Positions 23,329 to 53,434 of a stretch of 64,000 nucleotides of DNA are shown here, piece after piece. The notes beneath the pieces were generated by a model, which worked only from the letters and a program-made list of their open reading frames with translations, was not told the DNA's origin and made no database searches. The position numbers and the translations under genes are program-made. The first letter of the stretch is position 1. Every line of letters begins with the position of its first letter. The stretch is from Maribacter caenipelagi (GTDB taxonomy: Bacteria; Bacteroidota; Bacteroidia; Flavobacteriales; Flavobacteriaceae), in assembly GCF_004364175.1 (NCBI RefSeq), contig NZ_SNZW01000013.1, forward strand, positions 610,726-674,725. The letters run 5' to 3'.

Positions 23329-23452
23329 AAAATTGATAAAAGCATATGAATTATTTTGATGATAAATAGTATCTATGTACAGCAATTTTAGTGCTAGCTT
23401 TAATTTCTAATCTCTTTAGAAATTAAAAAGGGCAATAATAATAATTTAACTA

Positions 23453-25122: not shown

Positions 25123-25737
25123 TTATAGCGATTGCAGCTCTTGTTGTAAGTTTTGCTTAGCTTGTGTTTCAAATTTATTATAAAAAAAGTCTGTTTTAAA
25201 TATTCTATCCATTGAGAGAAAATGATTTAGAACTTTTTTGCGTCCAGAATTATACATAAAGGTGGGGTAGATACCATATTCTTTTCTAACATTTTTGAAA
25301 TATAAAGAATATGTTTCCCAACTCTGTCCTAGTACCGAAAGGTCGGCATCTATAAAATAGTTGGTGTCACTGTCGATTGATTTACTATGCGATTTGGTAG
25401 CCAAAATTTGTTTTTTACATTGTTCTATAATCTCATTTGAAACAGAAATTTTTTTCATACGTTTTTCAGCAAGTTCAGCACTTTTTTCTTCATTGTTAGA
25501 TTTTGTTGAACTATAAATTATATCGTGGTAGTAGAGTGTAAATAAGATGGTTTCCCAGTTTTTTATTTCTCGCTTTACAATAGTTAATTGAGAATGTAAA
25601 TTGTCAAGGTGCTGTAAGGTATGATAATGTCTTTTTTTGCTTGAATAGTTTTTCTCGATTTCTGCCCATAGTACGTTCATCAAATCCTTATCGGCAGTAT
25701 ATTTTGTCATAAGTTTTATGAATGTTTCTCTAAGCAT
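25123..25737 (-). CDS. HD-superfamily metal-dependent phosphohydrolase-like protein
   Basis: Protein of 204 residues with the layout of the predicted HD phosphohydrolases of COG4339: RHYHTLQHLDNL (first His motif), LFTLYYHDIIYSS (HD motif) and FIDADLSVLG (distal Asp). These residues would bind a divalent metal. Some databases attach a misleading receptor-subunit name to this family; nothing here supports that. The nucleotide or phosphoester substrate is unknown. Neighbours on the same strand are spaced by more than 100 bp, so it is probably transcribed alone. Confidence 0.75.
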   Translation of the reverse strand: MLRETFIKLMTKYTADKDLMNVLWAEIEKNYSSKKRHYHTLQHLDNLHSQLTIVKREIKNWETILFTLYYHDIIYSSTKSNNEEKSAELAEKRMKKISVSNEIIEQCKKQILATKSHSKSIDSDTNYFIDADLSVLGQSWETYSLYFKNVRKEYGIYPTFMYNSGRKKVLNHFLSMDRIFKTDFFYNKFETQAKQNLQQELQSL

Positions 25738-32362: not shown

Positions 32363-33688
32363 TCATTTTAATTTTTCTCGCAGGGTTTTACGATCTATTT
32401 GAAGAATTTGGGCGGCTTTAGTTTTGTTACCACCTGTATGATTGAGGATACGCTGAACATATTCTCGCTCTATATCTCGAAGCGGACGCAGCTCGTTATC
32501 AGAAAAATCAATTTGATACTTTAAAAAATCTGGTAAGTCTTTTACTTCAATTTTGCCATCTGCCATAATTACGGCTCTTTGAATAATATTTTCAAGTTCT
32601 CTTATATTGCCGGGCCAGTTGTATCGTTGGAGTATTTGTAAAGCTTCCGGAGAAATACGAAGTAACCGATCTTTAAACTCTATTCCGTACTTACGTAGAA
32701 ACTTCTCCGTTAAAAGGGCAATATCAGATTTACGCTCTCGTAATGGTGGTACATTAATTTCTACTACCGTTAATCTGTAATACAGATCTTCCCTAAACGT
32801 ATTGTTTTTGATTTCCTCTCTTAAGTTGGCATTTGTAGCTGCAATAACTCGAATATCTACCTTTTCCACTTTTTGGGATCCTACCCGTGTAATTTCCTTT
32901 TCTTGAAGAGCACGCAGTAATTTGGTCTGTACGGCTAAAGAAGCCGTACCTATTTCATCTAAAAACAAAGTGCCGCCTTTTGCTGCTTGAAAGAATCCGT
33001 TTCTATTTTCGTTAGCTCCTGTAAAGGCACCTTTTATGTAGCCAAAAAGTTCAGCTTCCTGAAGATTTTCTGGTATGGCAGCGCAGTTTACGGCTATGAA
33101 CGGTTCTCTAGAAAACTTACCTGAATAGTGAATTGCCCTAGCAACTAATTCCTTACCGGTACCACTTTCACCGGTAACAATTACGGTAGCTTTATTATCC
33201 TTTACACGGTCAATTATATTAATTACCTTATTAAAAGCTTCAGATTCACCGACCATATCTGAATAGATATTTGGCTTTTGATGTACGTCTTTTTGTATAG
33301 TTTTTTTGCGTGCTTTGTTTTGTTTCAGCGCTTTTTCAACTGCTTCTTTAAGTTCTAATTTGGTGAAGGGCTTGGTCAAATAATCTGTAGCGCCAGATTT
33401 TATGACTTCTAATGTTCCTTCAACAGATGGGTACCCGGTGACCACCAATTTTGGAATTTCAGGATAATGTTCGTTAGCAAATTTCAATAATTGTAGCCCA
33501 TTAATTTCAGGCATTTGTATGTCTGTAATGAGCAAATCAATGAAGGTATCTTTAAGTATAAATAACGCTTCTTTTACAGAAACCGCTTTATAGGTATGAT
33601 AATCCATTGATTGTAGATGCCTTTGTAAAAGCTCTAATATGTCAATATCATCATCTACTATAAGAATGTTCTCTTTGCGCAAATCCAT
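32363..33688 (-). CDS. NtrC-family sigma-54-dependent response regulator
   Basis: Protein of 441 residues in three parts. The receiver (1-120) has acidic D12-D14, acceptor D56 in LLITDIQMPEING and K104-like TKPF. The AAA+ sigma-54 activation domain (~145-375) has Walker A GESGTGKE, the sigma-54-contacting GAFTGA in KGAFTGANENR and Walker B GGTLFLDEI. The C-terminal Fis-type helix-turn-helix reads GGNKTKAAQILQIDRKTLREK. It activates transcription from sigma-54 promoters on phosphorylation, and one lies just downstream of its stop. The start is 4 nt after the histidine kinase's stop, so they form a cognate two-component pair. Confidence 0.95.
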   Translation of the reverse strand: MDLRKENILIVDDDIDILELLQRHLQSMDYHTYKAVSVKEALFILKDTFIDLLITDIQMPEINGLQLLKFANEHYPEIPKLVVTGYPSVEGTLEVIKSGATDYLTKPFTKLELKEAVEKALKQNKARKKTIQKDVHQKPNIYSDMVGESEAFNKVINIIDRVKDNKATVIVTGESGTGKELVARAIHYSGKFSREPFIAVNCAAIPENLQEAELFGYIKGAFTGANENRNGFFQAAKGGTLFLDEIGTASLAVQTKLLRALQEKEITRVGSQKVEKVDIRVIAATNANLREEIKNNTFREDLYYRLTVVEINVPPLRERKSDIALLTEKFLRKYGIEFKDRLLRISPEALQILQRYNWPGNIRELENIIQRAVIMADGKIEVKDLPDFLKYQIDFSDNELRPLRDIEREYVQRILNHTGGNKTKAAQILQIDRKTLREKLK

Positions 33689-33691: not shown

Positions 33692-34780
33692 TTACAATTT
33701 AGGAAAGTCAACGGTAAATATAGTCCCTTTAGGTGTATTTGGTTTGTACTCTATTTTGCCTTTATGGCTGGTAATAATTCCGTGAACTACACTAAGGCCC
33801 AAGCCAGTGCCTTCTCCAATGGGTTTGGTAGTAAAGAAAGGTTCAAATACCTTATCTTCTAATTCTGTTGGTATACCTTTTCCTTGATCAGAAATTTGAA
33901 TACTTATCTGACTATCGGTTTCTAAAACCTGTACAGCAATAGTACTACCATCATGAGAATAGTAAATGGCATTCATGATTAAATTGAACATAACCTGAGT
34001 CAACTGTACCGTATCTGCTCTAAGCTCAATATTTTCATTGTCAAAGACTTTTGTCAATTTTAAATTCTTGGATCGTAAAGAGGGTTCAAGTAGTTTAACA
34101 ACACTGGTAACAATAGGTATTAGTTGTACCGTTTTCATTTCTTGTGGCATTTCACAAGCAAAAAACATGAGTTTTTTAACGATTTCTCGACTGAAAATAG
34201 CACTGTCCATTATTTTTTCGAGGTCTCTAACAGCTTCTTTATCTTTTATTTTATCTGTCAATAATTCAGCAAAACCAAGAATATTGGCAAGAGGTGTGTT
34301 CAATTCATGGGCAATTCCCGCGGTTATTTCACCAAGTATATGTAAACGATCCGTACGTTCCATCTTTCTTCTTGTAATGGCTTCACTATCTCGAATCTGT
34401 TTACGTTCAATAAGATTACCGATATCTAAAGCTACGTTATTCAACAAAGTCTGTTCTTCAACCAAAAAATCGTCAAGAGTATACTTGTTTGAAGGATACC
34501 CTACAATTACTTCGCCCTCTATTTTATTAAAGACCTTGATCTTTGATACTAAAGCGACCATATCATGATAATAATCATCGGTTTGCACCTGATATTCGCC
34601 CACTTTTAGAAAGACTTCGGTTACATTTTCAAATTGCCAAGCTCTTTTAAGGCAATAAGCGATAGCTTCAAGCGAAGCCTCTAATTGGTCATAATCAGAA
34701 TTTACAATTATAGATGTTACTTCATAAAGACAGGTTAATTCTTTGACGCGCTCCTTTAATTTAGCTTCAACTGATGTCAT
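33692..34780 (-). CDS. Cytoplasmic sensor histidine kinase, partner of the NtrC-type regulator
   Basis: Protein of 362 residues with no membrane helix. An N-terminal GAF-like sensor region (~10-125) is followed by HisKA with phospho-acceptor H158 in ITAGIAHELNTPLANILG and an HATPase domain with N-box LIMNAIYYS, DQGKGIP and GEGTGLGLSVVHGI. It autophosphorylates and passes phosphate to the regulator encoded 4 nt downstream. The soluble sensor suggests an internal signal (metabolite or energy state), not an external one; the signal is unknown. Closely related kinases often carry HTPLANILGFAELL as here. Confidence 0.92.
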   Translation of the reverse strand: MTSVEAKLKERVKELTCLYEVTSIIVNSDYDQLEASLEAIAYCLKRAWQFENVTEVFLKVGEYQVQTDDYYHDMVALVSKIKVFNKIEGEVIVGYPSNKYTLDDFLVEEQTLLNNVALDIGNLIERKQIRDSEAITRRKMERTDRLHILGEITAGIAHELNTPLANILGFAELLTDKIKDKEAVRDLEKIMDSAIFSREIVKKLMFFACEMPQEMKTVQLIPIVTSVVKLLEPSLRSKNLKLTKVFDNENIELRADTVQLTQVMFNLIMNAIYYSHDGSTIAVQVLETDSQISIQISDQGKGIPTELEDKVFEPFFTTKPIGEGTGLGLSVVHGIITSHKGKIEYKPNTPKGTIFTVDFPKL

Positions 34781-35588
34781 ATCTATTGCATTTCAATTGC
34801 GATATATAAAGGTCAGCAATATTTGGTAAGAACGGAAATAATGAATATTCAAATCCATTTGACATCCTTAAAATATAAAACTAGAATACAAGATGGTGGT
34901 TTTATTATCTCAAGATATTCCGGGATAATTATATAGTAGGTAAAATCTAAGTAAATATTTGTAGGAATTTGTTTTTAGTTTTTTGGTCAATTTATACGAT
35001 TGTATTTAGTTGTAAGTACTAAAACTGAAATTATATAAACTGATTTCTTAGATATTCTTCTAAAAATGATAATATGTAACTATTTGATATATTATATTTT
35101 ATCGACAAAATACAGTCTTTTTTTATTTAGACATACAAATAGTTAGCTTTCTCATACAATCTTTTGTAATTGACAACAATATTTTATTATAGCTCAATAC
35201 CCACTTTATATTTAGGAAAAATACCTAGTTTTATGTAGTCCTTGGACTACTTTAAAAAAACTAAACTAACTCTAATTTATGGATGATGTTATTGATTGTA
35301 GGAATCATCAAACTTTTAAAAAAAGAGTTTATGCAGAGAATTTTGGTATTCAAATACAAATGGATGTTATAAAAATGATACCGTTCAACGATACATTTAT
35401 ACCATTCACCTTTAGAAAATCTTCATCGGAATGTAAAATGCACTTTTTAAGTCCTTTAAATTCTTTCTTTGACTTTGTGCATTCACCCTTTTCAGTAATA
35501 AAATGTGGTCTTTATCTAAAGAAAATATAAAATTTTAAAATTCAGATAATAATATCTCGTAAATAAGATCAGTATAGGCTAACTCAAA
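34781..35588. other. Long AT-rich intergenic region before the giant adhesin gene
   Basis: About 800 bp separating the divergent histidine kinase and adhesin genes. There is one frame at 35279-35530 (83 codons), but its product shows no signal, motif or coding-like composition, so it is not called as a gene. A near-consensus -7 box TATATTTA lies at about 35207. The palindrome at 35235 is the clearest element. Such a long leader may carry regulation of the adhesin operon. Confidence 0.4.
35235..35250. promoter_or_regulatory. Inverted repeat in the adhesin upstream region
   Basis: GTAGTCC (35235-35241) and GGACTAC (35244-35250) are perfectly complementary around TT. There is no T-run after it, so it is a candidate operator or leader hairpin, not a terminator. 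Confidence 0.4.
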
Positions 35589-38500
35589 ATGAACAAAACC
35601 ATCTCGCTCCTCGTCAAAATATTCGCAGTATTTCTAAAGGTTATTCAAAACTATTTCAAAAAGTACAGTTCTCTAATGAAAGGTGACTTTTTACAAAAGT
35701 TTGTTTCTAAAAGTTTAAACCTACATTTTATGATAAATAGCAGTAAACTTCAATTATCGTTCTTAGCTATCATATTATTTTTAACTGCAAACGTAAATGC
35801 ACAGAACTTTGAAAATGTTTCAATAACAAGTATTTCAAGTGGAACAGTAGTAGACGCTTACTTCAATGCTACCTCACCAACCATCCCATCACTGTCTTAT
35901 GTTAGGGTTCAAAAAGTAAGTGGTGCTGGTAATAACGGAGAAATAGGGTACTCAAGTGCAGTAGACAATTTCTTTTATAGCAACCCATCCAATAGTGGAA
36001 CAACAGCTCCTTCAAGAATACGAATTAGTTTCATTGCTTCAGACAAAGTTACCTTAATACCTGTTAATGATTTTAGAATTATAATTAACGATATTGATGG
36101 CACACCTGCTGCTGCAAATCCAAGTATTCCTATAGAAAACGAAGCTGTTGGTACAGACTGTGATAATTCTGTTCGGTTTACAGCCACAGATATACCAACT
36201 AATATTAATGTAGATACTACTCCGCCTACGCTACTTTCTGCAGGTACCGAGTCAGAAGCGAATGGTCCGGAAAGTAATTTAATGTTTGAGTTTAATGATG
36301 TAAATTTTATTGAATTTGATATTTATGCAAACCCTGGATTTATAAAAGAGTTTGATCTTAACCAAAGTGAATATCAGATAAACACAGTGTTATATTCTGT
36401 CTGTGTAGGAGATTCAGATGGAGATGGTGTTTTTGATAATGTAGATATTGATGATGATAACGATGGTATTTTAGATATTGTAGAGTCAAATGGTAATGAT
36501 CCTAACGGTGATGCCGATGGTGACGGACTTCCTAATTTTCAAGATGTTTTAGATAATTCTGGTGACGGTGTTCCCACATATAACGCCAATGCCGATGGTA
36601 GCGTTACCAATTACACCGATGCTAATTCCGATGGTGTACCAGATGTTTACGAAGCCAGTCAAGATAATGATAGCTATCCCAACCATTTAGATTTAGATTC
36701 CGATGATGACGGTATACCTGATAATATTGAAGCTCAGGCTAGTGGCTCTTATATCGCTCCGTCTGGTAATGATTCAGATGGCGACGGTTTAGATGATAAT
36801 TATGAAGGCTCTGGTAATCAGGGTCTTATTCCTGTTAATACAGATGTAGCTTTTGCTACACCTGATAATGTTCCAGATTTTTTAGACCCAGATAGTGATA
36901 ATGATGGTATCTCAGATGCTGTTGAAGCTTACGATACCAACGGTGATGATGTTGCTGAAACTACCTTAGCGGGAAATGATACCGATTTAGATGGTATAGA
37001 CGATAATTTTGATCAGAACGCTAACGGAATGGATGATCCTGATGCAGCAACAAACAATGGTCAAACTCCAAATTCATTTCAAGATGACGATCCTGCCGGA
37101 GGAGAAAGAGATTGGAGAGATCCAAGAGATAGTGACGGTGATGGCACTAGTGATAATGATGATACCGATGACGACAATGATGGTATTGTAGATTTAGATG
37201 AATACCCTGGTCTTGATCCTTTTGGTGATGAAGATGGAGATGGTATTTTAAATTTTAAAGATACAAGTCAAGATGTTGGTAATACCGGAGATGGTACCAC
37301 AACTAATTATAACGATGCTGACGGTAATGGAGTGCCCGACGCTTACGATGTGGATAATGATGGTCAACCTAATCATTTAGATATAGATAGTGATGATGAT
37401 GGTCATTTAGATGCTACCGACCCTAATCCCTATGCGCCAACCGCTCAAGATGAAAATGTAAACGCAACTTTAGGTGTAGCTACCAATATCAATATTTTAA
37501 GTAATGATGATTATTTTCCAAATAATAACCCAAATAATCAGGGTACTACCACAATTACCAGAACTGGCGGTACAGCTGGTGGTACTGCAATTTTAGATGC
37601 TTTAACCGGTGAATTGGCGTATACACCATTACTTACGGAGAACGGGTCAACCGTAACGGTAATTTATCAAGTTTGTAATACAGATCCAGATCCAGATGTT
37701 TGTGAAACCGCAACAGTAAACATAACGGTAACTAATGATCCAGATACTGATGGTGATGGTACACCAGATTCCAGTGATGCCGATGATGATAATGATGGTG
37801 TTCTAGATGGTGATGATAATGCACCTTTTGACCCAAGCAGTTGTCAAGATTTGGATGGTGATGGCTGTGATGATTGTTCTGCAACGGCAAGTAACGATTT
37901 TACTGTCGGTGATAATTTTGACCCTGCAAATGACGGTACAGATACCGATGGAGATGGCTTATGTGATGCTAGTGACCCAGACGATGATAATGACGGAGTT
38001 TTAGACGGTGATGACAATGCTCCATTAGATCCAAGTAGCTGTCAAGATTTGGATAATGATGGTTGTGACGATTGTTCGGCAACCGCAAGTACTGATTTTT
38101 CAGCAGGTAATAACTTTGACCCTGCCAATGATGGTACGGATACTGACGGAGATGGTATTTGTGACTCTGGCGATACCGATGATGATAATGACGGAGTTTT
38201 AGATGGAAATGATAACGCACCTTTAGACCCTAGTAGCTGTCAAGATTTGGATAATGATGGTTGTGACGATTGTTCTGCAACGGCAAGCAACGATTTTACA
38301 GGAGGTAATAATTTTGATCCTGCTAATGATGGCATAGATACCGATGGTGATGGATTATGTGATTCTGGTGATGCCGATGATGATAATGACGGGGTTCTGG
38401 ATGGAAATGACAATGCACCTTTAGACCCAAGTAGCTGTCAAGATTTGGATGGCGATGGTTGCGATGATTGTTCCGCAACAGCAAATACTGATTTTTCTGT

Positions 38501-41500
38501 TGGAAATAATTTTGATACGGATAACGACGGCACCGATACCGATGGAGATGGTATTTGTGATTCAGGCGATGCCGATGATGATAACGACGGAGTTCTAGAC
38601 GGTGATGATAATGCGCCCATTGATCCAAGTAGTTGTCAAGATTTAGATGGTGATGGTTGTGACGATTGTTCTGCCACGGCAAATAACGATTTTTCGGTAG
38701 GTAATAACTTTGATGCTTCTAATGATGGTATCGATACCGATGGTGACGGAGTTTGTGATTCTGGCGACCCAGATGATGATAATGATGGAGTTCTAGATGG
38801 TGATGATAATGCACCTTTAGACCCAAGCAGTTGTCAAGATTTGGATGGTGATGGTTGTGATGATTGTTCTGCAACGGCAAGTACTGATTTCTCAGCGGGA
38901 AGTAATTTTGACCCTGCCAATGACGGCACCGATACCGATGGTGACGGAATTTGTGATTCTGGCGATACTGATGATGATAATGACGGAGTTCTGGATGTAA
39001 ACGATAACGCACCTTTAGACCCTAGTAGCTGTCAAGACTTAGATGGTGATGGTTGCGATGATTGTTCGGCAACGGCGAGTACCGATTTTTCCGCCGGCAA
39101 TAATTTTGATCCTTCAAATGATGGTACGGATACCGATGGTGATGGAATTTGTGATGCTAGTGACCCCGATGATGATAATGATGGTGTAGCCGATGGTTCG
39201 GATGCTGCCCCATTAGACCCTTCTGTATGTCAAGATTTAGATGGTGATGGTTGTGATGATTGTTCCGCGACGGCTAGCACTGATTTTTCCGCCGGTAATA
39301 ATTTCGACCCTTCCAATGATGGTACCGATACCGATGGCGATGGAATTTGTGATGACAGTGACCCTGATGATGATAATGACGGAGTTTTGGATGGTGACGA
39401 TAATGCTCCTTTAGACCCAAGTAGTTGTCAAGATTTGGATGGTGATGGTTGTGACGATTGTTCCGCAACGGCCAGTACTGATTTTACTGCAGGCGCTAAT
39501 TTTGATACGGATACTGATGGTACCGATACCGATGGTGATGGAATTTGTGATGCTAGTGACCCCGATGATGATAACGATGGCGTAGCCGATGGCTCGGATG
39601 CTGCCCCGTTAGACCCTTCCATTTGTCAAGATTTAGATAGCGATGGTTGTGATGATTGTTCTGCTACGGCAAGTAATGATTTTACTGCAGGCGCTAATTT
39701 TGATACGGATAATGATGGTACCGATACCGATGGTGATGGTATTTGTGATTCTTCAGATTTAGATGATGATAATGATGGCGTAGCCGATGGCTCGGATGCT
39801 GCTCCGTTAGACCCATCCATTTGTCAAGATTTGGATGGTGATGGTTGTGACGATTGTTCGGCAACGGCAAGTACTGACTTTTCCGCAGGTGATAATTATG
39901 ACCCTTCCAACGATGGAACGGATACCGATGGTGATGGCTTATGTGACTCTGGTGATCCCGATGATGATAATGATGGTGTGCCCGATGGCACAGATACTGC
40001 TCCATTAGACCCATCTGTTTGTCAAGATTCTGATGGTGATGGTTGTGATGATTGTTCCGCAACCGCAAACAATGATTTTACTGCGGGAGTTAATTTTGAC
40101 CCTGCCAATGATGGTACTGATACCGATGGTGATGGTTTATGTGACTCTGGTGATCCTGATGACGACAACGATGGCGTAGCGGATGGTTCTGATACTGATC
40201 CTTTAGACCCTTCCATTTGTCAAGATTTGGATGGTGATGGTTGTGATGATTGTGGTGCAACGGCAAGCAATGATTTTACTGCCGGTGCTAACTTCGACCC
40301 AGACAATGACGGTATAGATACCGATGGAGATGGAATATGTAACACTAATGATGAAGATGATGATAACGACGGTATTCTGGATACTGTTGAAGGAACTAGC
40401 GATTTTGATAATGACGGTATTCCTAATAATGAAGATTTAGATAGTGATAATGATGGTATTCCAGATGTCGTGGAGACAGGCAATGGAAGTTTAGATATCG
40501 ATGGTAATGGGTCTATAGACCCAAGTGAAAGCGATCCAGGTACTAATGGTATTCCTAATTCTGCAGAAGATGGAGGTGTTGATGGAAACGGAGTTACTGC
40601 GGTTCCTGTTAATAGTGATAATACCGGAGGTGCCAATTACTTGGATATTGACTCTGATAATGATGGTATTCAAGATTTGGTAGAATCTCAAACCGATGCC
40701 GGTCTGGTTCAATTATCGGGTAACGATAGTGATAATGATGGTATAGATGATGTTTTTGATGCAGATAACGGAGGTAGCTTTACCAATACACTGGTAAACA
40801 CTGACAGTGATTCGCATCCAGATTATTTAGATTTGGATAGTGATGATGATGGAATTATAGATAATATAGAATGGCAATCAACTTCGGGTTATTTGAGTCC
40901 TTCTGCAGATTCTGACGGTAACGGTTTGGCAGATAATTACGAAGTGGTTCCTGCCGGTTCTGGTGAGTCTATTAATCAACCTGAAAATTCCGATGGTCAA
41001 GATAGTCCAGATTTTAGAGATTTAGATTCTGACAATGATGGTGTAAGCGATTATGTAGAAGCATATGACACAGATGCCGATAATACGGCAGATACTCCAA
41101 TTTCGGGAGTAGATTCCGATAATGATGGTTTAGATGATAATTTCGATTTAAGTATTAGCGCACCAAATGGAATAGCAGATGCAAATGGGGCAACGAATAA
41201 TAACCAAGATGTAGATAACTTTCCAAACGACCAAGATCCCTTTACCAGTGAAGTAGATTTTAGGGATGCCAATGTGCATTTAACACCTATAGATACTGAT
41301 GGTGACGGTGTTAATAATGATTTGGACAAGGATAATGACAATGATGATATTTTGGATTATGTGGAATCATTAGGTTTTGAACCTACGGATACAAAAGGAG
41401 ATGAATGTGGTATACCGCCAGGATCTTTTACAGGTGGCTCATATATAGCGGCTACAGGTAGTGGTGCGGGTACTGTAGGTGCCGAGTATCGTTTTTCAAC

Positions 41501-44500
41501 TGTGGTTACCTCGTCTCTAGGTGTATTAGATGCAATTGTTGCCATTACCGATATAAACAATGCAACCTTAACTTCTATTGATAATGGTGGTTTTGGTAGT
41601 GATGATGCTTGGCAACCTAGTTTTGATGTAGGTGGTGGTGTAGGTGCTGTTGGTAGTATTACTTTCAATATTAGGTTGGTGGCAACAGGAACAGATTTTC
41701 AAGTAAATCTAATTCGTTTTGGTGGTGTAATTTATGATATTGACGGTGCCAATACCGAAGAAAGTGTAACCTTGGCTCAACCAGGCTTGTATGCGGTAGA
41801 TAGTAATACATTATTAAATATTTCAGAAAATGCTGCTACGGGAACAACTACTTTTGAAGGTCCCGCGCAAACATGGTCAGGAGTTGACTTTGGACCAAAA
41901 CTTGCCGTTTATTTCAATTATTATGATACTACTAACTTTACGGTAACCTTCTCAGGTGAGTTGCAATCAGGTTTTTCATCCAATGATTATTTAGGATCTA
42001 TATTGTTTCAAACCTGTGATATTAACGGATTATTTACACCTACAAATACTACATCGGCAGTAAATTCTGCCGGTACGCCTTCAGGTGAAACATCTGGTCC
42101 GGGTACAGCTCCTGTGTATACCATTAACGAAGGTATTGATAGTGATAATGATGGTATAGAAGATCACTTGGATATTGATTCTGATAACGATGGTATTCCA
42201 GATAATGTTGAAGCGCAAACTACAAGTGGTTATGTTGCAAGAAATGCCAATACAGATGGAAATGGAAATGATGATACTGATGGTGATGGTTTAGGAGACG
42301 AGTATGAAGGTACAGGAGATGAAGGTGTCTCACCTATAGATACGGATGGAGATGGAATTCCAGATTATTTGGATTTGGATACGGATGGTGACGGACTTTC
42401 AGATACGGAAGAAGCTGGTTTTACTGCGGCATCGAATAATTTAGATAATGATCATGATGGTTTGTTTGATGATTATGACGATGTCGATACTACAGGTTTA
42501 CCCTTCGATTCTAATGATGATCAAGATAATGGTGCATCAGATTTACCTAATATTGCTGTGACCACAACTACTGAAGTAGATTATAGAGAAAATGCTATTG
42601 ATGATAATGATTTGGATGGCATCGCTGATTCTGCTGATTTAGATGATGATAATGACGGAATCTTAGATACTTTAGAAAGTCCTTCAGGTATAGACCCAAG
42701 TGCCGATGATGACTCTGACGGAATTCTAAACTATAGAGATACCGATTTGGGTGTCGATGCAAATGGTGATGGAATTGTAGATGATTTTGATACCGATGAT
42801 GATGGCGTACCTAATCATTTCGATTTAGATGCCGATAATGATGGAATTTATGATATTGTAGAATCGGGTAGTGGACAAGCGTTTACTGATGGTCTATTAG
42901 ATGGCGATGTTGGTACAGATGGTATTCCAGATTCGGTTCAAGCAAGCGGTCAACAAGATAGTGGTACTGTAAATTATACAGTATTAGATTCGGAGACAAC
43001 TCCGGATGGTATTGCAGATTTCTTGGAATTGGATGCGGATGGCGATTTATGTAATGATGTTATAGAGGCAGGGTTTACAGATGATAATGGAGATGGAATT
43101 TTAGGAGACGGAGCTCTGGTAGTAGACGCAGATGGTGTTGTAACTGGTACCAACGTAGTTGACGGATATACCGAACCAAATAATGTAGATAGTACTACAA
43201 ATACAGATTTCGATTTTCAACAGCTAGGGGAAACTCCAACTATAGCATCAAGCACAGATCAACCACAAGATGTATTGACAAATGCTAGTTTTTCAGAAAC
43301 ATTCACTGTTACGGCATCAGGAATCTCATTAGCATATCAATGGGAGGTAGATGATCAATTGGGTGGTGGTTTTGTAGCTATCGATGATGCCAATGGAACG
43401 GATATTTATACAGGTAGTACAACAGAAACCTTAACGTTAACAGGTGCTACCGCTACCGAAAATGGATTTGAATACCGAGTTATAATTACCGATTTAACTT
43501 TTGTGTGTTCTCCTCTTACTTCTGATGCGGCTTTACTTACGATTGATGTAACTGCGCCAACTGTAGCAATAGATGTAGTATCTACCGATGATATTATCAA
43601 TGCTATTGAAGACGATAGTGATGTTACTATTAGTGGTACAACTACAGGAGCCGAAAACGGTCAGATCGTAACAGTAGTTTTAAACGGGCACACGTATACA
43701 ACTACAGTAACCGGTGGTGTATGGTCGTTAGATGTACCGGCAGTAGATGTACAGGCATTGAATGAAACGGAAAGCATAACTGCAGATGTAAGTGATTTGG
43801 CGGGGAACCCTGCAGTACAGGCAACACGAGATATTGTACATGATGATACGGCACCTACAATTACTATTAATGTGGTTTCTACAGATGATATTATTAGTGG
43901 GTTTGAAGATGATAGTGATGTTACTATTAGCGGTACGACCACCGGGGCTGAAGATGGTCAGACCGTAACAGTAGTTCTAAATGGAGAAACATACACGACT
44001 ACGGTAACTAGCGATGCATGGACTTTAGATATGCCAGCGACAGATGCCCAAGCGTTGGACCCTTCCGAAACCATAACTGCAGACGTGAGTGATTTAGCCG
44101 GTAATCCTGCAACACAAGCTACACGAGATATAACACATGATGTAACTGCACCAACAATTGCAATAAATGTAGTGGCTATAGATGATGTGATAAATGCTTT
44201 GGAGGATGATACAGATGTAACAATTAATGGTACTACAGATGCCGAAGATGGACAGACGGTTACTGTAGTATTGAACGGAGAAATCTATACGACTACAGTT
44301 ACGAGTGGTACTTGGACTTTAGATGTGCCCGCGGCAGAAGCTCAAGTATTGGATGCTTTAGAAACTATTACTGCAGATGTAAGTGATGTAGCAGGCAACC
44401 CTGCAACACAGGCAACCAGAGATATTGAACATGATGTTACGGTACCAATAATTACAATAAATGTAGTAGCCACTGATGATATTATCAATGCAGTTGAAGA

Positions 44501-47500
44501 CGATGATGATGTGACCATAAATGGAACAACAACAGATGTTGAAGACGGTCAAACAGTTACGGTAACCTTAAATGGTCAAACCTATACGACTACGGTTTCT
44601 GGTGGTTCATGGAGTTTTGACTTACCTGCTGCAGATGCTCAGGCATTGGGTACGACCCGAACAATAACGGCAGATGTAAGTAATGATGCCGGTAACCCTG
44701 CAGTTCAAGCGACGCGAGATGTTGAACACGATGCGATTGCTCCCACCATAGCAATTAATGTGGTATCTACCGATGATATTATTAATGCCCTTGAAGATGA
44801 TACTGATGTCACCATTAGTGGAAGCACGACTGGAGCCGAAGATGGTCAGACTGTAACAGTGGTATTGAACGGACAAACATATACGACTACGGTAGCAGGT
44901 GGTACTTGGAGTTTTGATTTACCTGCAGCTGCAGCCCAAGCATTGGATGCTTTGGAAACCATAACTGCAGATGTAAGTGATGTAGCGGGTAACCCTGCAA
45001 CACAGGCAGCACGAGATATTGAGCATGATGTTGCGGCTCCGACAATTACAATAGATGTTGTATCGGGCGATGATGTTATAAATGCAGTTGAAGATGACAC
45101 GGATGTAACTATAAGCGGTACAACAACAGATGCCGAAAATGGTCAAACCGTATCGGTACTATTGGACGGACAAACTTATACGACTACAGTAACAGGTGGC
45201 ACATGGAGTTTTGACTTACCTGCGGCTGCTGCCCAAGCATTAGGTGCAACGGAAACAATCACTGCAGATGTAAGTGATGTTGCTGGTAACCCTGCAATTC
45301 AGGCGACAAGAGATATCCAACATGATGTCACTGCACCTACGATTACGATAGATGTAGTTACTACCGATGATATTATCAATGCAGTTGAAGATGATACGGA
45401 CGTAACCATAAGTGGCACAACAACAGATGCCGAAGACGGTCAAGCCGTTACGGTAACTTTACACGGACAAGCATACACAACTACCGTAACAGGTGGTACC
45501 TGGAGTTTTGACTTGCCAGCAGCAGCAGCTCAAGCATTGGGCGCAACGGAAACGATTACTGCAGATGTAAGTGATGCTGCCGGTAACCCTGCCACTCAAG
45601 CAACCAGAGTTGTTACACATGATGTAACTGCCCCAACTGTAGCAATAGATGTAGTATCTACTGATGATATTATTAATGCTATTGAAGACGACACCGATGT
45701 AACTATCAGTGGTACCACTACGGGTGCCGAAGATGGTCAGACTGTAACTGTAGAGTTGAACGGACAAACATACACTACAACAGTAACCGGTGGAATTTGG
45801 AGTTTTGATTTGCCTGCGGCGGATTCCCAAGCATTAGGTGCAACGGAAACGATTACTGCAGATGTTAGTGATTTGGCAGGTAACCCTGCAATACAGTCAT
45901 CCAGAGATATTGAACATGATGTCACTGCGCCAACTATAACAATCGATGTAGTAACTGGAGACGATGTTATAAACGCCGTGGAAGATGATACAGATGTGAC
46001 TATTAGTGGAACAACAACAGGTGCCGAAGACGGTCAAACCGTAACTGTATTTTTAGACGGACAAACATATACGACTACTGTAACAGGAGGAATATGGAGT
46101 ATTGACTTGCCCGCAGCAGCAGCTCAAGCATTGGGCGCATCGGAAACCATTACTGCAGACGTAAGTGATTTGGCGGGTAACCCGGCAACGCAGGCAACAA
46201 GAGATATTGAGCATGATGTTACGGCTCCGACAATTGCAATAGATGTTGTATCGGGCGATGACATTATCAGTGCTGTTGAAGATGATACTGATGTAACCAT
46301 TAGTGGAACAACGACTGGAGCAGAGGATGGTCAGACTGTAACGATTGTATTAAATGGACAGACGTACACTACAACGGTTACAGGAGGAACATGGAGTTTT
46401 GATTTACCTGCAGCAGATGCGCAGGCATTAAATCCTTTGGAAACGATTACGGCAGATGTTAGTGATTTGGCAGGTAACCTTGCAACACAAGCAACACGAG
46501 ATATTATTCATGATGATACCGCTCCGGTAATCACAATAGATGTGGTTTCTACAGATGATATTATAAATGAATTTGAGCAAAATAGTGATGTTACCATCAG
46601 TGGTACTGCAGATGCCGAAGATGGTCAAACTGCAACGGTTACCTTAAATGGTCAAACCTACACAACTACGGTAATAGGTGGCACATGGAGCCTAGATGTT
46701 CCGGCAGTAGACGTCCAAGCTTTAGACCCTAATGAAACGATTACTGCAGATGTAAGTGATTTGGCGGGGAACACTGCAACACAAGCTACTAGAGATATTG
46801 AACATGATGTTACCGCTCCTGTAATTACGATTGATGTAGTTGCTTTAGATGATGTTATCAACTCGATTGAAGATGATAGCGATATTATTATCAGTGGTAC
46901 TACAGATGCTGAAGATGGTCAAATAGTGACCGTTTTATTAGACGGACAAACATACACGACAACGGTAACAGGAGGAACATGGAGTTTTGATTTACCTGAA
47001 GCTGCAGCCCAAGCATTGGACGCAACGGAAACCATAACTGCAGATGTAAGTGATTTGGCTGGTAATCCTGCAACACAGGCAACACGAGATGTTGAGCATG
47101 ATGTCACTGCACCAATAATAGCAATAAACGTAGTATCTACCGATGATATCATTAATGCTGTGGAAGATGATAGTGATGTTGCCATCAATGGTACTACAGA
47201 TGCCGAAGATGGTCAAACAGTTACAGTGGTGTTGCATGGTCAAACGTATACAACAACGGTAACTGGTGGTATTTGGAGTTTAGATGTGCCTGCGACTGAT
47301 GCTCAGGCATTAAATGCAAATGAAACGATTACTGCTAATGTAAATGATGTATCCGGTAACCCTGCTGTTGAAGCTACACGCGATATTGAACATGATGTCA
47401 CGGCACCAACGATAAGCATCAATGTAGTATCAACCGATGATATTATTAATGCGGTCGAAGACGATAGTGACGTTACCATCAATGGTATTACAGATGCCGA

Positions 47501-49478
47501 AGACGGTCAAATCGTAACGGTAACCTTGAACGGACAAACCTACACTACTTTGGTAACAGGTGGTACTTGGAGTTTAGAGGTGCCAGCTGCAGATGCACAG
47601 GCATTAGTTGCAAACGAAACCATTACTGCAGATGTAAGTAATGTAGCCGGTAATCCTGCTATTCAGGCGACAAGAGGTATCGAACATGATGTAACTCCTC
47701 CAATAATAACTATAGATGTAGTATCTAACGATGATGTTATCAATGGAGTTGAAGATGATAACGATGTTACTATTAGTGGTACTACAGATGCCGAAGATGG
47801 TCAAACTGTAACGGTAACCTTGAATGGTCAAACTTATACAACAACAGTTATCGGTGGCATTTGGAGTTTAGATGTACCTGCAGCAGATGCACAGGCGTTG
47901 GATGTCAATGAAACCATCACAGCAGATGTGAGTGATTTGGCAGGAAACCCTGCTACGCAAGATGCTCGGGATATTGTTCATGATGTTATTATTGACATTG
48001 AGATAAATACTCCTATTGAAATAGATAATATTGTTAGCGAAGCTGAGGTAGCCGATGTAATAATTTCAGGGGTTACCACTGGGGTTGAAGACAACCAAAC
48101 AGTAACCGTTACTTTAGATGATGGTGTAAATTCTGTTACTACAACTGCAACGGTAACTGCTGGAACCTGGACGGCTAATGAAATTGATATTTCAGGATTG
48201 AATAATGGTCCGATATCGGTCAATGCTGAGGTTTCTGATTTTGCAGGCAATACTGCCGATGACTTAGAATCAATAGTGCTCAATACTACGGCTCCTAGTG
48301 CAGATAGCTTTAGTACTTCGGATGTCACTCCAATTGTAACTGGGCAAGGTGACGCTAACGAAAGTCTTGTAGTTGAATTGGATACTAATGGTGATAATAT
48401 AGTTGATGTAACCTATAGTGTGACAGTTGATTTAAATGGTGATTGGAGTATAGATACCGGTTCCGCTACTCCTGATAGTGGTAGTCTTCCTGCTCTTTCT
48501 GATGAAGATGTTATACAAGTTATTGTAACGGATGAAACCGGTAATTTAGGGACTGGTACGGTGACGATTTCAGAGGATACTGATAACGATGGACTTACAA
48601 ATAACGAAGAAGTTGCTTTAGGAACGGACCCCAATGACCCTGATTCAGATGGGGACGGTATCAACGATGGTCAAGAAGTAAACGTTGATACTACAGATCC
48701 TTTAGACGATTGTGACCATGTAGGTGGTACTCCATTGGGTACTAGCGATTGTGACGATGATGGTTTGTCCACCGATGAGGAAACGGCATTGGGTACAGAT
48801 ACGAACAACCCGGATACCGATAACGATGGACTTACGGACGGGGAGGAAGTAGATTTAGGTACGGATCCATTAAACCCCGATTCGGACGGCGACGGTATAA
48901 ACGACGGGCAAGAAGTATTGGACAATACCGATCCTTTAGACGATTGCGATCATGTTGGCGGTACAGCGTTTCCAGATAGCGATTGTGATGCCGATGGATT
49001 GAATACGGCACAAGAAGATGCAATCGGTACTGACCCAGATGTTGCCGATACTGATGGTGATACTATCTCGGACGGACAGGAAATAATCGATGGTACTGAT
49101 CCATTGAACCCATGTGATTCATTGAACGGATTTCCACCCTTTGATGCTGGTTGTAATGCTGAGATAGTTGATAGCGGAATAGCTGTTGCCAACGAAGTAA
49201 TTACCCCAGATGGAGATGGAACCAATGATTTCTTTGGTATAGAGAATATAGAATCTTTCCCGAACAATACGGTTCAGATCTATAACAGATGGGGAATATT
49301 GGTGTATGAAATGTCAGGTTATGACAATAGAACAAATGTATTCACAGGGTCTTCAGATGGTAGAGCAACGCTTAGTAAAGATTCAGAGCTTCCTGTAGGC
49401 GTATATTTCTATGTGATCAAGTACGATAACGACGGAAACAAGCTGAACAAGTCCGGCTACCTATATATAAACAGATAA
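35589..49478 (+). CDS. Giant T9SS type-B cargo adhesin (Ca-binding repeats, Ig-like repeats, CHU_C domain)
   Basis: Protein of 4,629 residues. A signal peptide is seen at about residues 48-72 (ATG 35730, ending LTANVNAQ); the frame opens at ATG 35589 with an odd 47-residue extension, so the true start may be 35676 or 35730. Order: N-terminal beta domain (72-270); thrombospondin-type-3-like DxDxDG repeats (275-1935), interrupted by a cadherin-like module (~615-715); a second beta domain (1940-2180); more DxDxDG repeats to 2540; one Ig-like domain (2547-2650); 15 near-identical Ig-like repeats (2652-4130) plus two diverged; DxDxDG repeats (4330-4525); and a gliding-motility CHU_C domain (~4530-4629, [17 protein letters not shown]). 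It is very Asp-rich, so calcium-stiffened. Probably a surface adhesin exported by the type IX system. Confidence 0.93.
37842..40380 (+). repeat. 13 tandem 198-bp units coding Cys-containing thrombospondin-3-like repeats
   Basis: Each unit begins [12 protein letters not shown] and carries [11 protein letters not shown] plus DDDNDGV, so four cysteines per 66 residues. Spacing from the first unit's Cys codon at 37842 to the 13th at 40218 is exactly 12 x 198. The units differ mainly at silent sites and in a short S/N-DF-T/S-AG segment. Confidence 0.9.
43545..47981 (+). repeat. 15 tandem ~296-bp units coding Ig-like domains
   Basis: Units of 98-99 codons share D-VTAPTI-x-I-x-VVS-x-DDIIN, [48 protein letters not shown][10 protein letters not shown]. 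Total length 4,437 bp divided by 15 gives 295.8. This is the bacterial Ig-like (Big_13-type) stalk pattern. Confidence 0.9.
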
Positions 49479-49500: not shown

Positions 49501-50433
49501 ATGAAAAAACATTTCCTGACCATATTAATAGTCATTTCCGGTCTTTGCATGGGCTATTCCCAGCAAGACGCGCAATATACACAGTATATGTACAATACCA
49601 TCTCGGTGAACCCTGCGTACGCGGGTTCTCGTGGGGAGTTGAGTATAGTAGCACTACACCGTTCGCAGTGGGTGGGGCTAGATGGAGCACCGACTACGCA
49701 GACGCTGAACTTCCATACCCCAGTATCGGACCATGTAGGTCTGGGTCTATCTGTGGTGAACGACGAGATCGGTAACGGTACCAATCAAGATACCTATATC
49801 GACGCGGTGTTCAGCTACACGGTAATCACTTCGGAGGAAGGTAAACTTTCCTTCGGTCTAAAAGCGGGCGGACACCTGTTCAACGTCGATTTCACGAAAC
49901 TGAGGAACTACGGTGCGGAGAGCAACCTACCGAACATTGACAACAAGTTCTCTCCGAATTTCGGTGCTGGCATCTATTACCATACGGATCGATTCTATGC
50001 GGGACTTTCGGTACCTAACTTTTTACAGACGGAGCATTTCGACAGTTCGGATACGAATAGTTCCAGCCTTATCGCACAAGAACGAATGAACTTCTATCTG
50101 ATTACAGGTTATGTTTTCGATCTGAACACAAACGTAAAATTGAAACCTGCGGCACTTATCAAGGCGGTAAAGGGCGCACCGTTACAAGTGGACCTTAGCG
50201 CAAACTTCCTGTTCAACGATAAATTCTCCCTAGGGGCGGCGTATAGATGGGATGCGGCATTGAGCGTACTGTTCGGCTTTCAGTTAAACGACCAATTAAT
50301 GTTGGGACTTGCCTATGACAAAGAGGTTACGGATTTGGGAGCTACTAGGTTCAATGATGGGTCATTCGAGTTCATGCTCAGATATGAATTCTTGAACAAG
50401 TACAGACGAGTAATCACCCCAAGATTCTTTTAA
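49501..50433 (+). CDS. PorP/SprF-like outer-membrane protein of the type IX secretion/gliding system
   Basis: Protein of 310 residues with a signal peptide (to about residue 20, MGYSQQ) and the PorP/SprF signature QQDAQYTQYMYNTISVNPAYAGSRG followed by HRSQWVGLDGAPTTQ (given here in parts: AQYTQYMYN, NPAYAGSRG, LHRSQWVGLDG). It is an outer-membrane barrel ending in an aromatic-rich strand. In flavobacteria SprF-like proteins are needed to export or attach the CHU_C-type adhesin encoded immediately upstream; that pairing is seen here, 23 bp after the adhesin stop. Visibly higher GC and different codon choice (GAC, AAC, ATC) than surrounding genes. Confidence 0.9.
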   Translation: MKKHFLTILIVISGLCMGYSQQDAQYTQYMYNTISVNPAYAGSRGELSIVALHRSQWVGLDGAPTTQTLNFHTPVSDHVGLGLSVVNDEIGNGTNQDTYIDAVFSYTVITSEEGKLSFGLKAGGHLFNVDFTKLRNYGAESNLPNIDNKFSPNFGAGIYYHTDRFYAGLSVPNFLQTEHFDSSDTNSSSLIAQERMNFYLITGYVFDLNTNVKLKPAALIKAVKGAPLQVDLSANFLFNDKFSLGAAYRWDAALSVLFGFQLNDQLMLGLAYDKEVTDLGATRFNDGSFEFMLRYEFLNKYRRVITPRFF

Positions 50434-50442
50434 AAAAACGAC

Positions 50443-52380
50443 ATGAAAAAAGCAGGATATATATTTTGTGGCTTGGCGGTAGTGACTATGATGGCAAGCG
50501 CACAGGACAAGAAAGTACAAAAAGCGGATACAAAATTCACGAACTACGCCTATGCCTCGGCGATACAATCGTACGAGCAATTGGTAAAGGACGGTTATAC
50601 TGAAGAGGAGGTGTACAAGAACCTGGGCAATGCAAACTATCTGAACGCGAACTACGAAGAAGCATCAAGCTGGTATGGCAAGCTGTTCTCGCTCAAAGGA
50701 GCGGATATCAACCCTGAATATATGTACCGTTACGCACAGACCTTAAAGTCACTTGAAAACTATAAAGAATCCGACACGTGGATGAACAAATTCAAGAGCG
50801 CAAGAGAGAACGATCAACGTGCGTTGGTATTCGATGAGAACAGAGATTATCTGGAACAGATTGAGGAACGCTCGGGAAGGTACGAACTAAAGAACATTGG
50901 GCTGAATTCGAAGGTATCGGACTTTGCACCCTCTTTCCATGAAGTAGGATTGGTGTTCTCGACGGCAAGGGACAGTGGATTGCTATCTAAGAACATCCAT
51001 AAATGGAACAACGGATCGTTTTTAAATCTATACAAGGCATCACAAGATGATCAGGGTAACTTCACCAATGTGGACAAGCTGAGCAAAAGATTGAACAAGA
51101 AGACCCATGAATCTTCGACTGTATTTACCAAGGACGGACAGACGATGTACTTTACAAGGAACAATTCCGACGAGGGCAAGTTCGAAAGGGACGATGAAGG
51201 TGTAAGTAGACTAAAAATATACAGGGCAAGATTAATAGAAGGAGAGTGGAACGATATTGAAGAATTGCCCTTTAACGGGGACAGCTATTCTGTAGCACAT
51301 CCGACCTTAAATAAAGGAGAAACGAAACTATACTTCGCTTCCGATATGCCGGGAACGAAAGGGCAGTCGGATATTTATGTAATAGATATCAACAAGGACG
51401 GTACTTTCGGTACACCAAAGAACCTGGGAGAACGGATCAATACCGAGGCAAGGGAGACCTTTCCTTTCGTGACCCAGAGTGATAAACTCTATTTTTCATC
51501 CGATGGACATCCGGGACTAGGTGGACTTGACGTCTTCGCAACGGACCTGAACAATGAAAAGGGAGAGATCTACAATGTAGGACGTCCCTTGAACGGAGAG
51601 GAAGATGACTTCTCTTATATTATTGATGAAGAGACCGGAAAAGGTTTTTTTGCATCCAACAGAAAAGGGGGAAAGGGGAACGACGATATCTATAGTTTTG
51701 TAGAAAGGACCCCATTGGACTTTGCCTGCCATACGGCAATCACGGGAATCGTAAAGGACCAAAAAACCAATGCACTGTTAACGGATGTATCGGTAATGGT
51801 CTACGACAAGGATAACAAGGTAGTGTCGAGTTCAAGCACCGATGCTAACGGAGCATTCCAAATGGAGGGCACCTGCGCGGAAGGAAGCTATAAAGTAGTG
51901 GCGACCAAGACCTATTACGAAGAAGGCAACAAGACCTTCATGACCGTCAAAGCTGAAGATGCGACCGGCATAGAGATAGTACTGGCACAGGTAGACCCAT
52001 CGTCACCGATAGGCACCGACCTTGCGAAATACCTGAACATAGAACCTATTTATTTCGATTTCGACAAGTACTTCATCCGAGAAGATGCAAGGATCAGTAT
52101 CAATAAAGTAATGGCATACTTGAATGAATACCCAAGTGTAAACGTACAAGTACGCTCGCATACTGATTCACGTGCTGACGATGCGTACAATATGCGATTA
52201 TCGACGAATAGGGCTAAGGCAACTGCCGAATATTTGATAGCGGCAGGAATCCCGAGCAACAGAATCTCTTATGAAGGTTATGGCGAAACAGAGCTTACCA
52301 ATGGCTGTAGCAACGATATACCTTGTAGCAAAGAAAAGCATCAGTTGAACAGAAGGTCTGAGTTTATTGTGGTGGAATAG
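50443..52380 (+). CDS. OmpA-family protein with TPR, PD40-type propeller and CarboxypepD_reg-like domain
   Basis: Protein of 645 residues. Signal peptide (to MASAQ), TPR-like helices (~25-135), a WD40/PD40-like propeller (~160-430, with repeats such as LYFASDMPGTKGQSDIYVI), a carboxypeptidase-regulatory beta-sandwich (~435-520) and a C-terminal OmpA/MotB peptidoglycan-binding domain (~535-645: YFDFDKYFIR, VRSHTDSRADDAYN, NRRSEF). It anchors to the cell wall from the outer membrane. It follows the PorP/SprF-like gene by 9 bp and is the last gene of the adhesin operon, a very common triad in flavobacteria. Shares the high-GC character of the preceding gene. Confidence 0.92.
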   Translation: MKKAGYIFCGLAVVTMMASAQDKKVQKADTKFTNYAYASAIQSYEQLVKDGYTEEEVYKNLGNANYLNANYEEASSWYGKLFSLKGADINPEYMYRYAQTLKSLENYKESDTWMNKFKSARENDQRALVFDENRDYLEQIEERSGRYELKNIGLNSKVSDFAPSFHEVGLVFSTARDSGLLSKNIHKWNNGSFLNLYKASQDDQGNFTNVDKLSKRLNKKTHESSTVFTKDGQTMYFTRNNSDEGKFERDDEGVSRLKIYRARLIEGEWNDIEELPFNGDSYSVAHPTLNKGETKLYFASDMPGTKGQSDIYVIDINKDGTFGTPKNLGERINTEARETFPFVTQSDKLYFSSDGHPGLGGLDVFATDLNNEKGEIYNVGRPLNGEEDDFSYIIDEETGKGFFASNRKGGKGNDDIYSFVERTPLDFACHTAITGIVKDQKTNALLTDVSVMVYDKDNKVVSSSSTDANGAFQMEGTCAEGSYKVVATKTYYEEGNKTFMTVKAEDATGIEIVLAQVDPSSPIGTDLAKYLNIEPIYFDFDKYFIREDARISINKVMAYLNEYPSVNVQVRSHTDSRADDAYNMRLSTNRAKATAEYLIAAGIPSNRISYEGYGETELTNGCSNDIPCSKEKHQLNRRSEFIVVE

Positions 52381-52909: not shown

Positions 52910-53434
52910 ATGAAAAATGTGAAAATCGTATTGTTAGGTTATATGGGTAGCGGTAAATCTACTGTTGGTAGAATAGTGGCTAACCATTTGAATATTAAAT
53001 TTTTAGATTTAGATACTTATATCGAGGAAGTTGAAGCGATGCCTATAGCTAGCATTTTTGAGACCAAAGGTGAAATCTATTTTAGAAAAAAAGAAATTGA
53101 ATATTTGAACAAAATATTTTCAAATGAGGAAAGTTTTGTGCTTTCACTTGGTGGTGGTACTCCTTGTTTTGGAACTAACATGGCCTTGATAAATGAAAAA
53201 ACTGCTAATTCGTTCTATTTGAATGTGGGTATAAATGAACTTGCTGATCGTTTATTGATGGAAAAAAGCCACCGTCCAATGATTTCTCATTTACAAGATG
53301 AAGAGCTAATCGGATTTATTGGAAAGCATTTGTTCGAAAGAAGCTATTTTTATAATCAAGCACATCAAAAGGTCAAGAGCAATCTAAATACTCCGACAGA
53401 GATTGCAGAAATGATCGTAAAGAAACTAGTCTAA
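52910..53434 (+). CDS. aroK: Shikimate kinase
   Basis: Protein of 174 residues, the usual length. Walker A LLGYMGSGKSTVGR at the N-terminus, shikimate-binding FLDLDTYIEE, RKKEIEYL and LGGGTPCF, and the lid region near EKSHRPMI. It phosphorylates shikimate at position 3 with ATP in the chorismate pathway, in the cytoplasm. It is monocistronic: tRNA genes lie upstream on the other strand, and the convergent phosphoribosyltransferase gene overlaps its 3' end by 9 bp. Confidence 0.93.
   Translation: MKNVKIVLLGYMGSGKSTVGRIVANHLNIKFLDLDTYIEEVEAMPIASIFETKGEIYFRKKEIEYLNKIFSNEESFVLSLGGGTPCFGTNMALINEKTANSFYLNVGINELADRLLMEKSHRPMISHLQDEELIGFIGKHLFERSYFYNQAHQKVKSNLNTPTEIAEMIVKKLV

Follow-up and report, generated by a model that had tools for sequence, protein, structure and literature searches.

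Why does one chromosomal site, bordered by a histidine kinase gene and by aroK, hold a single giant surface-protein gene in some Maribacter genomes, two or three in others and none in others again? The question is raised by a 64,000-nucleotide stretch of the Maribacter caenipelagi genome (contig NZ_SNZW01000013.1, positions 610,726 to 674,725; the window), in which positions 35589-49478 of the plus strand form a single uninterrupted open frame of 4,629 codons. The original prediction, made from the letters of the window, described a very large calcium-rich surface fibre exported as a type B substrate of the type IX secretion system (T9SS), with a C-terminal CHU_C domain. The frame and its terminal domain are confirmed, and three lines of evidence support the wider description: the family assignments, the solved structures related to its immunoglobulin-like (Ig) repeats (4p99, E 1.4e-48), and the presence of PorP/SprF and OmpA genes immediately after it. 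The adhesin is probably the variable gene of a three-gene cassette (adhesin-PorP-OmpA), statically anchored, at a fixed site that varies across the genus. The cassette and its borders are as follows.

32363-33688, minus strand: sigma-54 response regulator of the NtrC type, flanking the site upstream (Pfam Sigma54_activat and Response_reg; adjoins the kinase in G004, G022, G003, G023, G001, G033, G028 and G011)
33692-34780, minus strand: histidine kinase, left border of the site (HATPase_c, HisKA)
35589-49478, plus strand: giant type B T9SS adhesin, 4,629 amino acids (open frame; Pfam and NCBIfam)
49501-50433, plus strand: PorP/SprF-family shuttle (PF11751, 318.8 bits; TIGR03519, 285.4 bits)
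50443-52380, plus strand: OmpA-domain protein of PorE/CHU_0125 build (OmpA, 65.8 bits; NF053607, 412 bits; NF052230, 309 bits)
52910-53434, plus strand: aroK, encoding shikimate kinase and bordering the site on the right (PF01202; adjoins the histidine kinase in G001, G023 and G028)

Annotation with Pfam and NCBIfam placed the adhesin among type B T9SS substrates, with matches above the curated cut-offs to CHU_C (88.7 bits, cut-off 27) and to TIGR04131, the model for type B sorting (36.3 bits against a cut-off of 35), and among thrombospondin type 3 (TSP3) repeat proteins (TSP3_bac, 54.9 bits, cut-off 25). Ca_tandemer (NF033510) matched 17 stretches at 1105.7 bits (cut-off 50), with Big_13 also present, and the adhesin thus carries the Ca2+-stabilised Ig extender repeats of RTX adhesins (NF033510; PDB 4p99). 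RTX nonapeptides are absent from its C-terminus, which is occupied by CHU_C, and no RTX family is among its six Pfam families at E<=1. The protein contains 18.8% Asp and 0.4% Lys, and simple counting puts its net charge at -970. The genome contains 17 CHU_C and 11 PorP-family matches, and carries the T9SS as judged by SprA (SprA_N twice within one frame of 2403 amino acids).

Site occupancy across the genus

The histidine kinase was matched at E<=1e-120 in 21 of the 36 Maribacter genomes (designated by G numbers). Kinase and tgt lay on one contig in 12 genomes, of which G002 and G005 were excluded (kinase matches 67-70% identical and more than 1 Mb away), and occupancy was counted in the 10 with both genes within 100 kb on one contig: six sites were filled and four short. 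The filled sites held one cassette in M. caenipelagi, G004, G011 and G016, two in G022 and three in G033. No cassette was present in G023 and G001, in which the kinase and aroK are approximately 0.7 kb apart, or in G028, in which they are approximately 2.1 kb apart, all three being shown empty; G020 was assigned to the same state from spacing alone, its kinase copy being interrupted by stops. Partial evidence came from G026, in which two contigs end and a third begins within the OmpA gene, a pattern that two or more near-identical copies would produce, and from G003, in which the contig ends just past an adhesin adjoining the kinase; the remaining genomes could not be judged.

Complete passenger frames in Maribacter cassettes, whether inside or outside this site, range from 1139 to 5284 amino acids. 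The first 1000 residues of ten other passengers (nine genomic cassettes from G033, G022, G016, G026 and G003, and one of G002 located elsewhere) matched IgGFc_binding in three cases, an RCC1-like family in one, DUF6923 in one, Big_9 in two more and no family in three.

In G033 (contig C1, approximately 2079000-2131000; L141-L143), a stretch of approximately 50 kb lies between the third cassette and an FKBP-like gene and carries other genes, among them ATP synthase-like and ABC transporter genes as judged by eye; the kinase-tgt spacing in the other nine judged genomes leaves no room for it.

Mosaic divergence and the PorP-OmpA pair

Comparison with G004 indicates that parts of the M. caenipelagi gene have different recent histories, and the mixed-origin architecture of the original prediction is supported in another form. 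One nearly identical tract is as follows.

35100-38110, plus strand: tract nearly identical to G004, comprising upstream DNA, the N-terminal domain, the first TSP3 block and the first 66-residue repeat (93.7-99.7% nucleotide identity per alignment window)

Fourfold-degenerate sites differed from G004 at 15 of 339 positions before residue 840 and at 502 of 1599 (31%) after it, a break matched in strength by none of 5000 shuffles. The N-terminal domain, which differs from G004 at 2 of 90 such sites, is not a slow region, since 51 of 71 differ from G011. Among 31 other frames of the window (of 40), 25 matched the G004 stretches, with 29-61% of fourfold sites different and 73-92% DNA identity, and six had no match. 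Further tracts nearly identical to G004 were found at 48909-49409 (C-terminal domain, CTD; weaker support, p 0.019) and at 50109-50909 (end of PorP and start of OmpA). From these alignments, the first 2.5 kb of the gene and the DNA upstream look like the product of recent interspecies exchange, with homologous recombination between species as the simplest reading of the mosaic.

Within G033, identity between cassettes 1 and 2 is 97% in the first alignment window of 150 columns, around the adhesin stop, and 100% from approximately +126 to +2526, compared with 68-80% in the three windows upstream, and similarity ends after OmpA; PorP-OmpA is thus identical over 2.4 kb beside unlike adhesins. Between M. 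caenipelagi and G011, the passengers are 83% identical in the N-terminal domain, 93% in the second domain, 82-90% in the first three TSP3 blocks and 76-87% in the Ig repeats, and similarity then falls, with 63% in the final Ig-type repeats and 73% in the final TSP3 block, while the anchor set is 56% (CTD), 73-75% (PorP) and 60-62% (OmpA) identical.

A PorP gene preceded by a frame ending in a type B-like CTD, as recognised by a simple pattern, was found 95 times in 93 sources (15 whole genomes or the window, and 78 of 80 named loci, L055 and L056 having been dropped as duplicates of G008 and G022). Distances were compared across the 57 cassettes with an OmpA frame of more than 350 residues and an adhesin frame of at least 500, a set that includes the near-duplicate loci L064 and L065 and from which shared ancestry was not removed. 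Mantel correlations were 0.849 for CTD-PorP, 0.789 for CTD-OmpA and 0.897 for PorP-OmpA, and those of the 200 residues preceding the CTD were 0.683 with the CTD, 0.660 with PorP and 0.631 with OmpA; none of 2000 permutations reached any of these values. The partial correlation of CTD with PorP given OmpA was 0.52, and that of CTD with OmpA given PorP was 0.115.

G022 also has a third cassette at a separate locus, on contig C10 (L040); its PorP is 96-100% identical to those of the tandem pair, which suggests homogenisation between distant loci.

Architecture of the fibre

The adhesin gene, read from its 5' end on the plus strand, is divided as follows.

35589-35804, plus strand: putative signal peptide, possibly with an extended n-region (Met1 or Met48; from sequence and relatives)
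35805-36413, plus strand: N-terminal domain, candidate ligand-binding, of no known family (six-sequence alignment; no PDB match at E<=1)
36414-37838, plus strand: first block of TSP3 calcium repeats (DxDxDG motifs)
37842-40415, plus strand: 13 tandem 66-residue TSP3-type repeats with four cysteines each, 52 in total (repeat analysis)
40416-41402, plus strand: TSP3 calcium repeats 3' of the cysteine array (DxDxDG motifs)
41403-42038, plus strand: second beta domain (alignment; matches in passengers of G033, G022 and G026)
42039-43544, plus strand: TSP3 repeats and linker preceding the Ig array (DxDxDG motifs)
43545-47981, plus strand: 15 Ca_tandemer/Big_13 Ig repeats, the stalk (NCBIfam; PDB 4p99, 5irb and 4kdv)
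47982-48566, plus strand: one or two divergent Ig-type repeats (NCBIfam; local hidden Markov model)
48567-49175, plus strand: TSP3 repeats preceding the sorting domain (best TSP3_bac stretch, residues 4409-4430)
49176-49475, plus strand: type B CTD, CHU_C/TIGR04131 (Pfam, NCBIfam)

The stalk comprises 15 Ig repeats of 98-99 residues each at residues 2653-4131, with a 16th, divergent repeat detected by the local model. The predicted count of 15 holds and the predicted near-identity does not: pairwise identity is 69.7-87.9% (mean 76.6%) in protein and 70.4-81.1% (mean 75.3%) in DNA. Comparison of the identical-codon fraction at identical residues with shuffled synonymous codons gave 0.540 against 0.454 in the Ig array and 0.641 against 0.545 in the cysteine array; with the same codon used in 54% of cases against 45% when shuffled, the Ig copies are far diverged and yet incompletely randomised at silent sites. 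Selection against DNA likeness of adjacent repeats was considered and rejected, the fraction being above the shuffled value in both arrays and neighbours being not clearly less alike than distant copies. Ca_tandemer scored above its cut-off in 11 of 395 genomes of the phylum, the present one included; at E<=0.001 it matched in 135, but 8 of 14 control genomes also matched, and the count was therefore limited to the 11.

By sequence, the Ig repeats are relatives of the Ca2+-stiffened extender domains of RTX adhesins, the array matching the MpAFP region II (RII) tetra-tandemer 4p99, the RTX adhesin 5irb (E 9.3e-27) and 4kdv (E 2.2e-10). In the parts of PMC4083281 used here, the 4p99 repeats are described as an extended rod in which the linker Ca2+ is bound by Asp104, the Glu106 main chain and Asp191, and MpAFP as reaching approximately 0.6 um with approximately 120 repeats, dimensions from which a stalk of approximately 75-85 nm would be expected here. 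According to an alignment by our own reading, the position of RII Asp191 is Asp in 13 of the 15 repeats and Asn in two, that of Glu106 (the first residue of the repeat) is Asp in all 15, and that of Asp104 is Glu in nine. What is shared with MpAFP region II and the MhLap extenders (4p99, 4kdv and 5irb) is a series of tandem Ca2+-stabilised Ig-like domains homologous by sequence; the differences are that the copies in MpAFP, roughly 120, are reported as identical and the 15 here are diverged, and that export of RTX adhesins is by type I secretion. Here, a T9SS signal is combined with Ca2+ extender repeats of a kind known mainly from that group.

The adhesin contains 92 D-x-[DN]-x-[DN]-G motifs. 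DxDxDG repeats had been predicted in three blocks; they are present in four (residues 275-600, 717-1902, 2184-2498 and 4330-4465), the second being mainly the array of 13 repeats of 66 residues, which had gone undescribed. This array (residues 752-1609) has four cysteines per unit, 32% Asp plus Glu and no Lys or Arg, and its 52 cysteines probably form disulfides. DxDxDG calcium repeats are common to it and to the known TSP3 families (TSP3_bac, TSP_3), from which it differs in its four-cysteine unit of 66 residues, matched at E<=1e-12 in 4 of 397 family genomes, M. caenipelagi included. A single PDB match to the array, a leucine-rich-repeat entry at 6.6e-4, was judged compositional and rejected as a relative. 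The same unit, which in M. caenipelagi contributes 52 cysteines to a protein presumed to lie on the outer surface, is present in genomes of three further genera of the family draw (G206, G221 and G260).

The original prediction had further suggested a length-tuned fibre, which, in the sense of changing copy number, is not supported: 15 Ig and 13 cysteine repeats are present in M. caenipelagi, G004 and G011, the three genomes found with this passenger (one cysteine unit of G004 was missed by a first pattern and recovered with a looser one). The counts are equal even though the arrays of M. caenipelagi and G011 differ at 39-74% of their fourfold sites. The best DNA match of each repeat lay in the same place in G004 for all 15 Ig repeats and 10 of the 13 cysteine repeats; in G011 this applied to 5 of 15 Ig repeats (6 by protein, the first six) and to 6 of 13 cysteine repeats (by protein), and repeat turnover ending at the same count is conceivable there. 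Fibre length does differ between distant relatives, as the protein of G438, from another genus, is a frame of 1688 amino acids with three near-identical Ig repeats and one divergent repeat, with a similar tail, PorP and OmpA. In G027, the N-terminal domain stands on another passenger, in which 643 frame residues are masked and the repeats could not be counted.

The two beta domains had been predicted to be related. Alignments of six N-terminal and six second domains gave a profile-profile probability of 1.6%, BLASTP between the two returned nothing useful, and both contain a short strand followed by DIDG; by sequence they are unrelated, which would still be compatible with a common fold. Foldseek with the model of the second domain found no match at E<=0.001, the best being a streptococcal adhesin at 8.3e-3, followed by carbohydrate-binding modules, lectins and meprins among others, and the model suggests a beta sandwich and nothing beyond. 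The N-terminal domain was present in 4 of 60 relatives' genomes (M. caenipelagi, G004, G011 and G027, all of one genus) and in 4 of 397 family genomes (M. caenipelagi, G027, and from other genera G407, 70% identical, and G438, 55% identical), a draw whose matches include neither G004 nor G011. The second domain also occurs in passengers of G033, G022 and G026 that are otherwise unlike the adhesin.

The predicted signal peptide from approximately residue 48 and the uncertainty of the start are both retained, a hydrophobic core at approximately residues 56-67, judged by eye, following Met48, with Met1 also a plausible start. The closest Met preceding the core is approximately 35 residues away in G011 and 41 in G438, which would imply a long n-region unless a GTG or TTG start is used there; G407 has an ordinary short signal peptide. 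An extended signal peptide as a general trait of giant T9SS adhesins was rejected, long n-regions being present in some of the CHU_C proteins of the genome and of the cassettes inspected and absent from others, with no common motif by eye; no paper with this subject in its title was found for T9SS proteins. A sigma-54 site for the NtrC-type neighbour was likewise rejected, as TGGN8TTGCW had 4 matches in the window against 4.3 expected and none upstream of the adhesin; a sigma-70-type scan upstream gave 8 matches against 8.1 expected.

Elsewhere in the window, six consecutive minus-strand frames at 19255-25737 (cNMP-binding, epimerase, DUF4442, SBF-like transporter and two without Pfam matches) have no match in the G004 stretches spanning the interval, and the genes flanking them do, possibly marking a second variable region. 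A minus-strand frame of 1,029 amino acids at 11366-14455, with a TTG start, has no Pfam match at 1e-4.

Proposed anchoring and exchange at the site

The PorP/SprF gene lies directly downstream of the adhesin gene, as in operons proposed to be PorE-type static anchors. PMC9143113 reports, in the parts used here, PorP-PG1035 and SprF-SprB complexes, and the passages of PMC12618676 used here describe cognate shuttles for type B CTDs, with some crosstalk between close pairs, and propose that Flavobacterium johnsoniae operons with a PorE-type gene are static anchors, moving adhesins being said to be without one. As the present operon has that PorE-type build, a static adhesive fibre is favoured by analogy. 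Gene order, CTD type, shuttle family and an OmpA/PorE-type third gene are shared with Fjoh_3952-3951-3950 (PMC12618676), whose static anchoring is its authors' proposal; a fixed site with zero to three exchangeable cassettes does not appear in those passages. With the PorE-PorP-PG1035 and SprF-SprB complexes of PMC9143113, the former of Porphyromonas gingivalis, the operon shares a PorP-like protein that holds a type B CTD protein; PG1035 is given in PMC12618676 as the sole type B substrate of P. gingivalis, in contrast to the giant repeat fibre here. In the M. caenipelagi genome, a second operon (L020; G000 contig C8, 149800-154700) encodes a type B protein (frame of 1,350 amino acids) with TSP3 repeats soon after the signal peptide, an adjoining PorP and an OmpA gene 46% identical.

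Under the cassette reading, the T9SS would export the adhesin by its type B CTD, and the cognate PorP/SprF protein encoded next door would take it up and, together with an OmpA-domain protein that may bind peptidoglycan, hold it in a static position at the outer membrane. The fibre would be kept extended by Ca2+ bound within the TSP3 blocks and at the junctions of the Ig repeats, and probably by disulfides of the cysteine repeats, so that its N-terminal domain, possibly together with the second beta domain, could reach its target. At the kinase-aroK site, the cassette would vary by gain, loss, duplication and homologous recombination, with PorP-OmpA constant, the CTD travelling with it and the passenger exchanged.

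Several observations weigh against parts of this scheme. For both candidate binding domains, sequence comparison with the PDB gave nothing at E<=1, and the structural models are poor, with a mean predicted local distance difference test score of 35.5 for the N-terminal domain and 54.7 for the second (predicted template-modelling score 0.64). The Asp104-type linker ligand is non-acidic in 6 of the 15 Ig repeats, and the OmpA protein scores below the curated PorE/CHU_0125 cut-offs (NF052230, 309 of 600 bits; NF053607, 412 of 620 bits). Within G033, the third cassette is only 87-100% identical to the first in PorP-OmpA, and the CTDs are 79-83% alike and thus less constant than PorP-OmpA. In G011, the anchor set rather than the passenger may have been replaced, and the CTD-PorP correlation partly reflects shared ancestry. 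A rival reading is an ordinary, vertically inherited type B operon, in which species differences are gain and loss and the mosaic is selective constraint. An adhesin-PorP order is common in Flavobacteriaceae, as the 95 such PorP genes attest, and passenger and kinase gene diverge similarly between M. caenipelagi and G011; such an operon is nevertheless unlikely, given an N-terminal domain that is nearly unchanged from G004 and is not slow, among window genes at 29-61% fourfold difference, and given identical PorP-OmpA beside unlike adhesins in G033.

A gliding adhesin propelled along the cell in the manner of SprB, to which the type B CTD and SprF-type partner would be suited (PMC9143113), appears less likely still, since an OmpA/PorE-type gene follows and moving substrates are said in the passages of PMC12618676 to lack one; the gliding assay put forward in the original prediction is therefore not the likeliest read-out. 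That the repeat array is an artefact of assembly or annotation, the circumstance named there as refuting it, is very improbable: the assembly is a draft of 20 contigs, but the frame is open throughout, the counts are equal in G004 and G011, and the gene contains one exact repeated 50-mer and no 60-mer, which, with the divergence of the Ig copies, makes it unlikely that assembly has shortened or expanded the array.

No report of such a cassette site was found among the titles and abstract openings listed in a literature search, mostly without subscription papers. The nearest precedent is the allelic exchange and domain rearrangement of P. gingivalis surface proteins (PMC5266723, seen in part), which shares the diversification of T9SS-organism surface proteins by genetic exchange; that exchange is between strains, and the one considered here is between species, in a cassette whose adhesin is of type B and whose export and anchor part is shared. 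As a more tentative generalisation, plausible although short of probable, the site could represent a Bacteroidota surface-diversification locus at which giant type B adhesins are swapped, duplicated and lost, while PorP-OmpA and the accompanying CTD would serve both as the constant machinery of export and anchoring and as arms for homologous recombination. If so, an imported passenger would come with, or be joined to, a functioning shuttle and anchor. The locus offers natural experiments, in the form of one large passenger on two CTD/PorP/OmpA sets and of unlike passengers beside nearly identical PorP/OmpA, and suggests a route by which a marine bacterium may change its surface attachment without rebuilding its export path.

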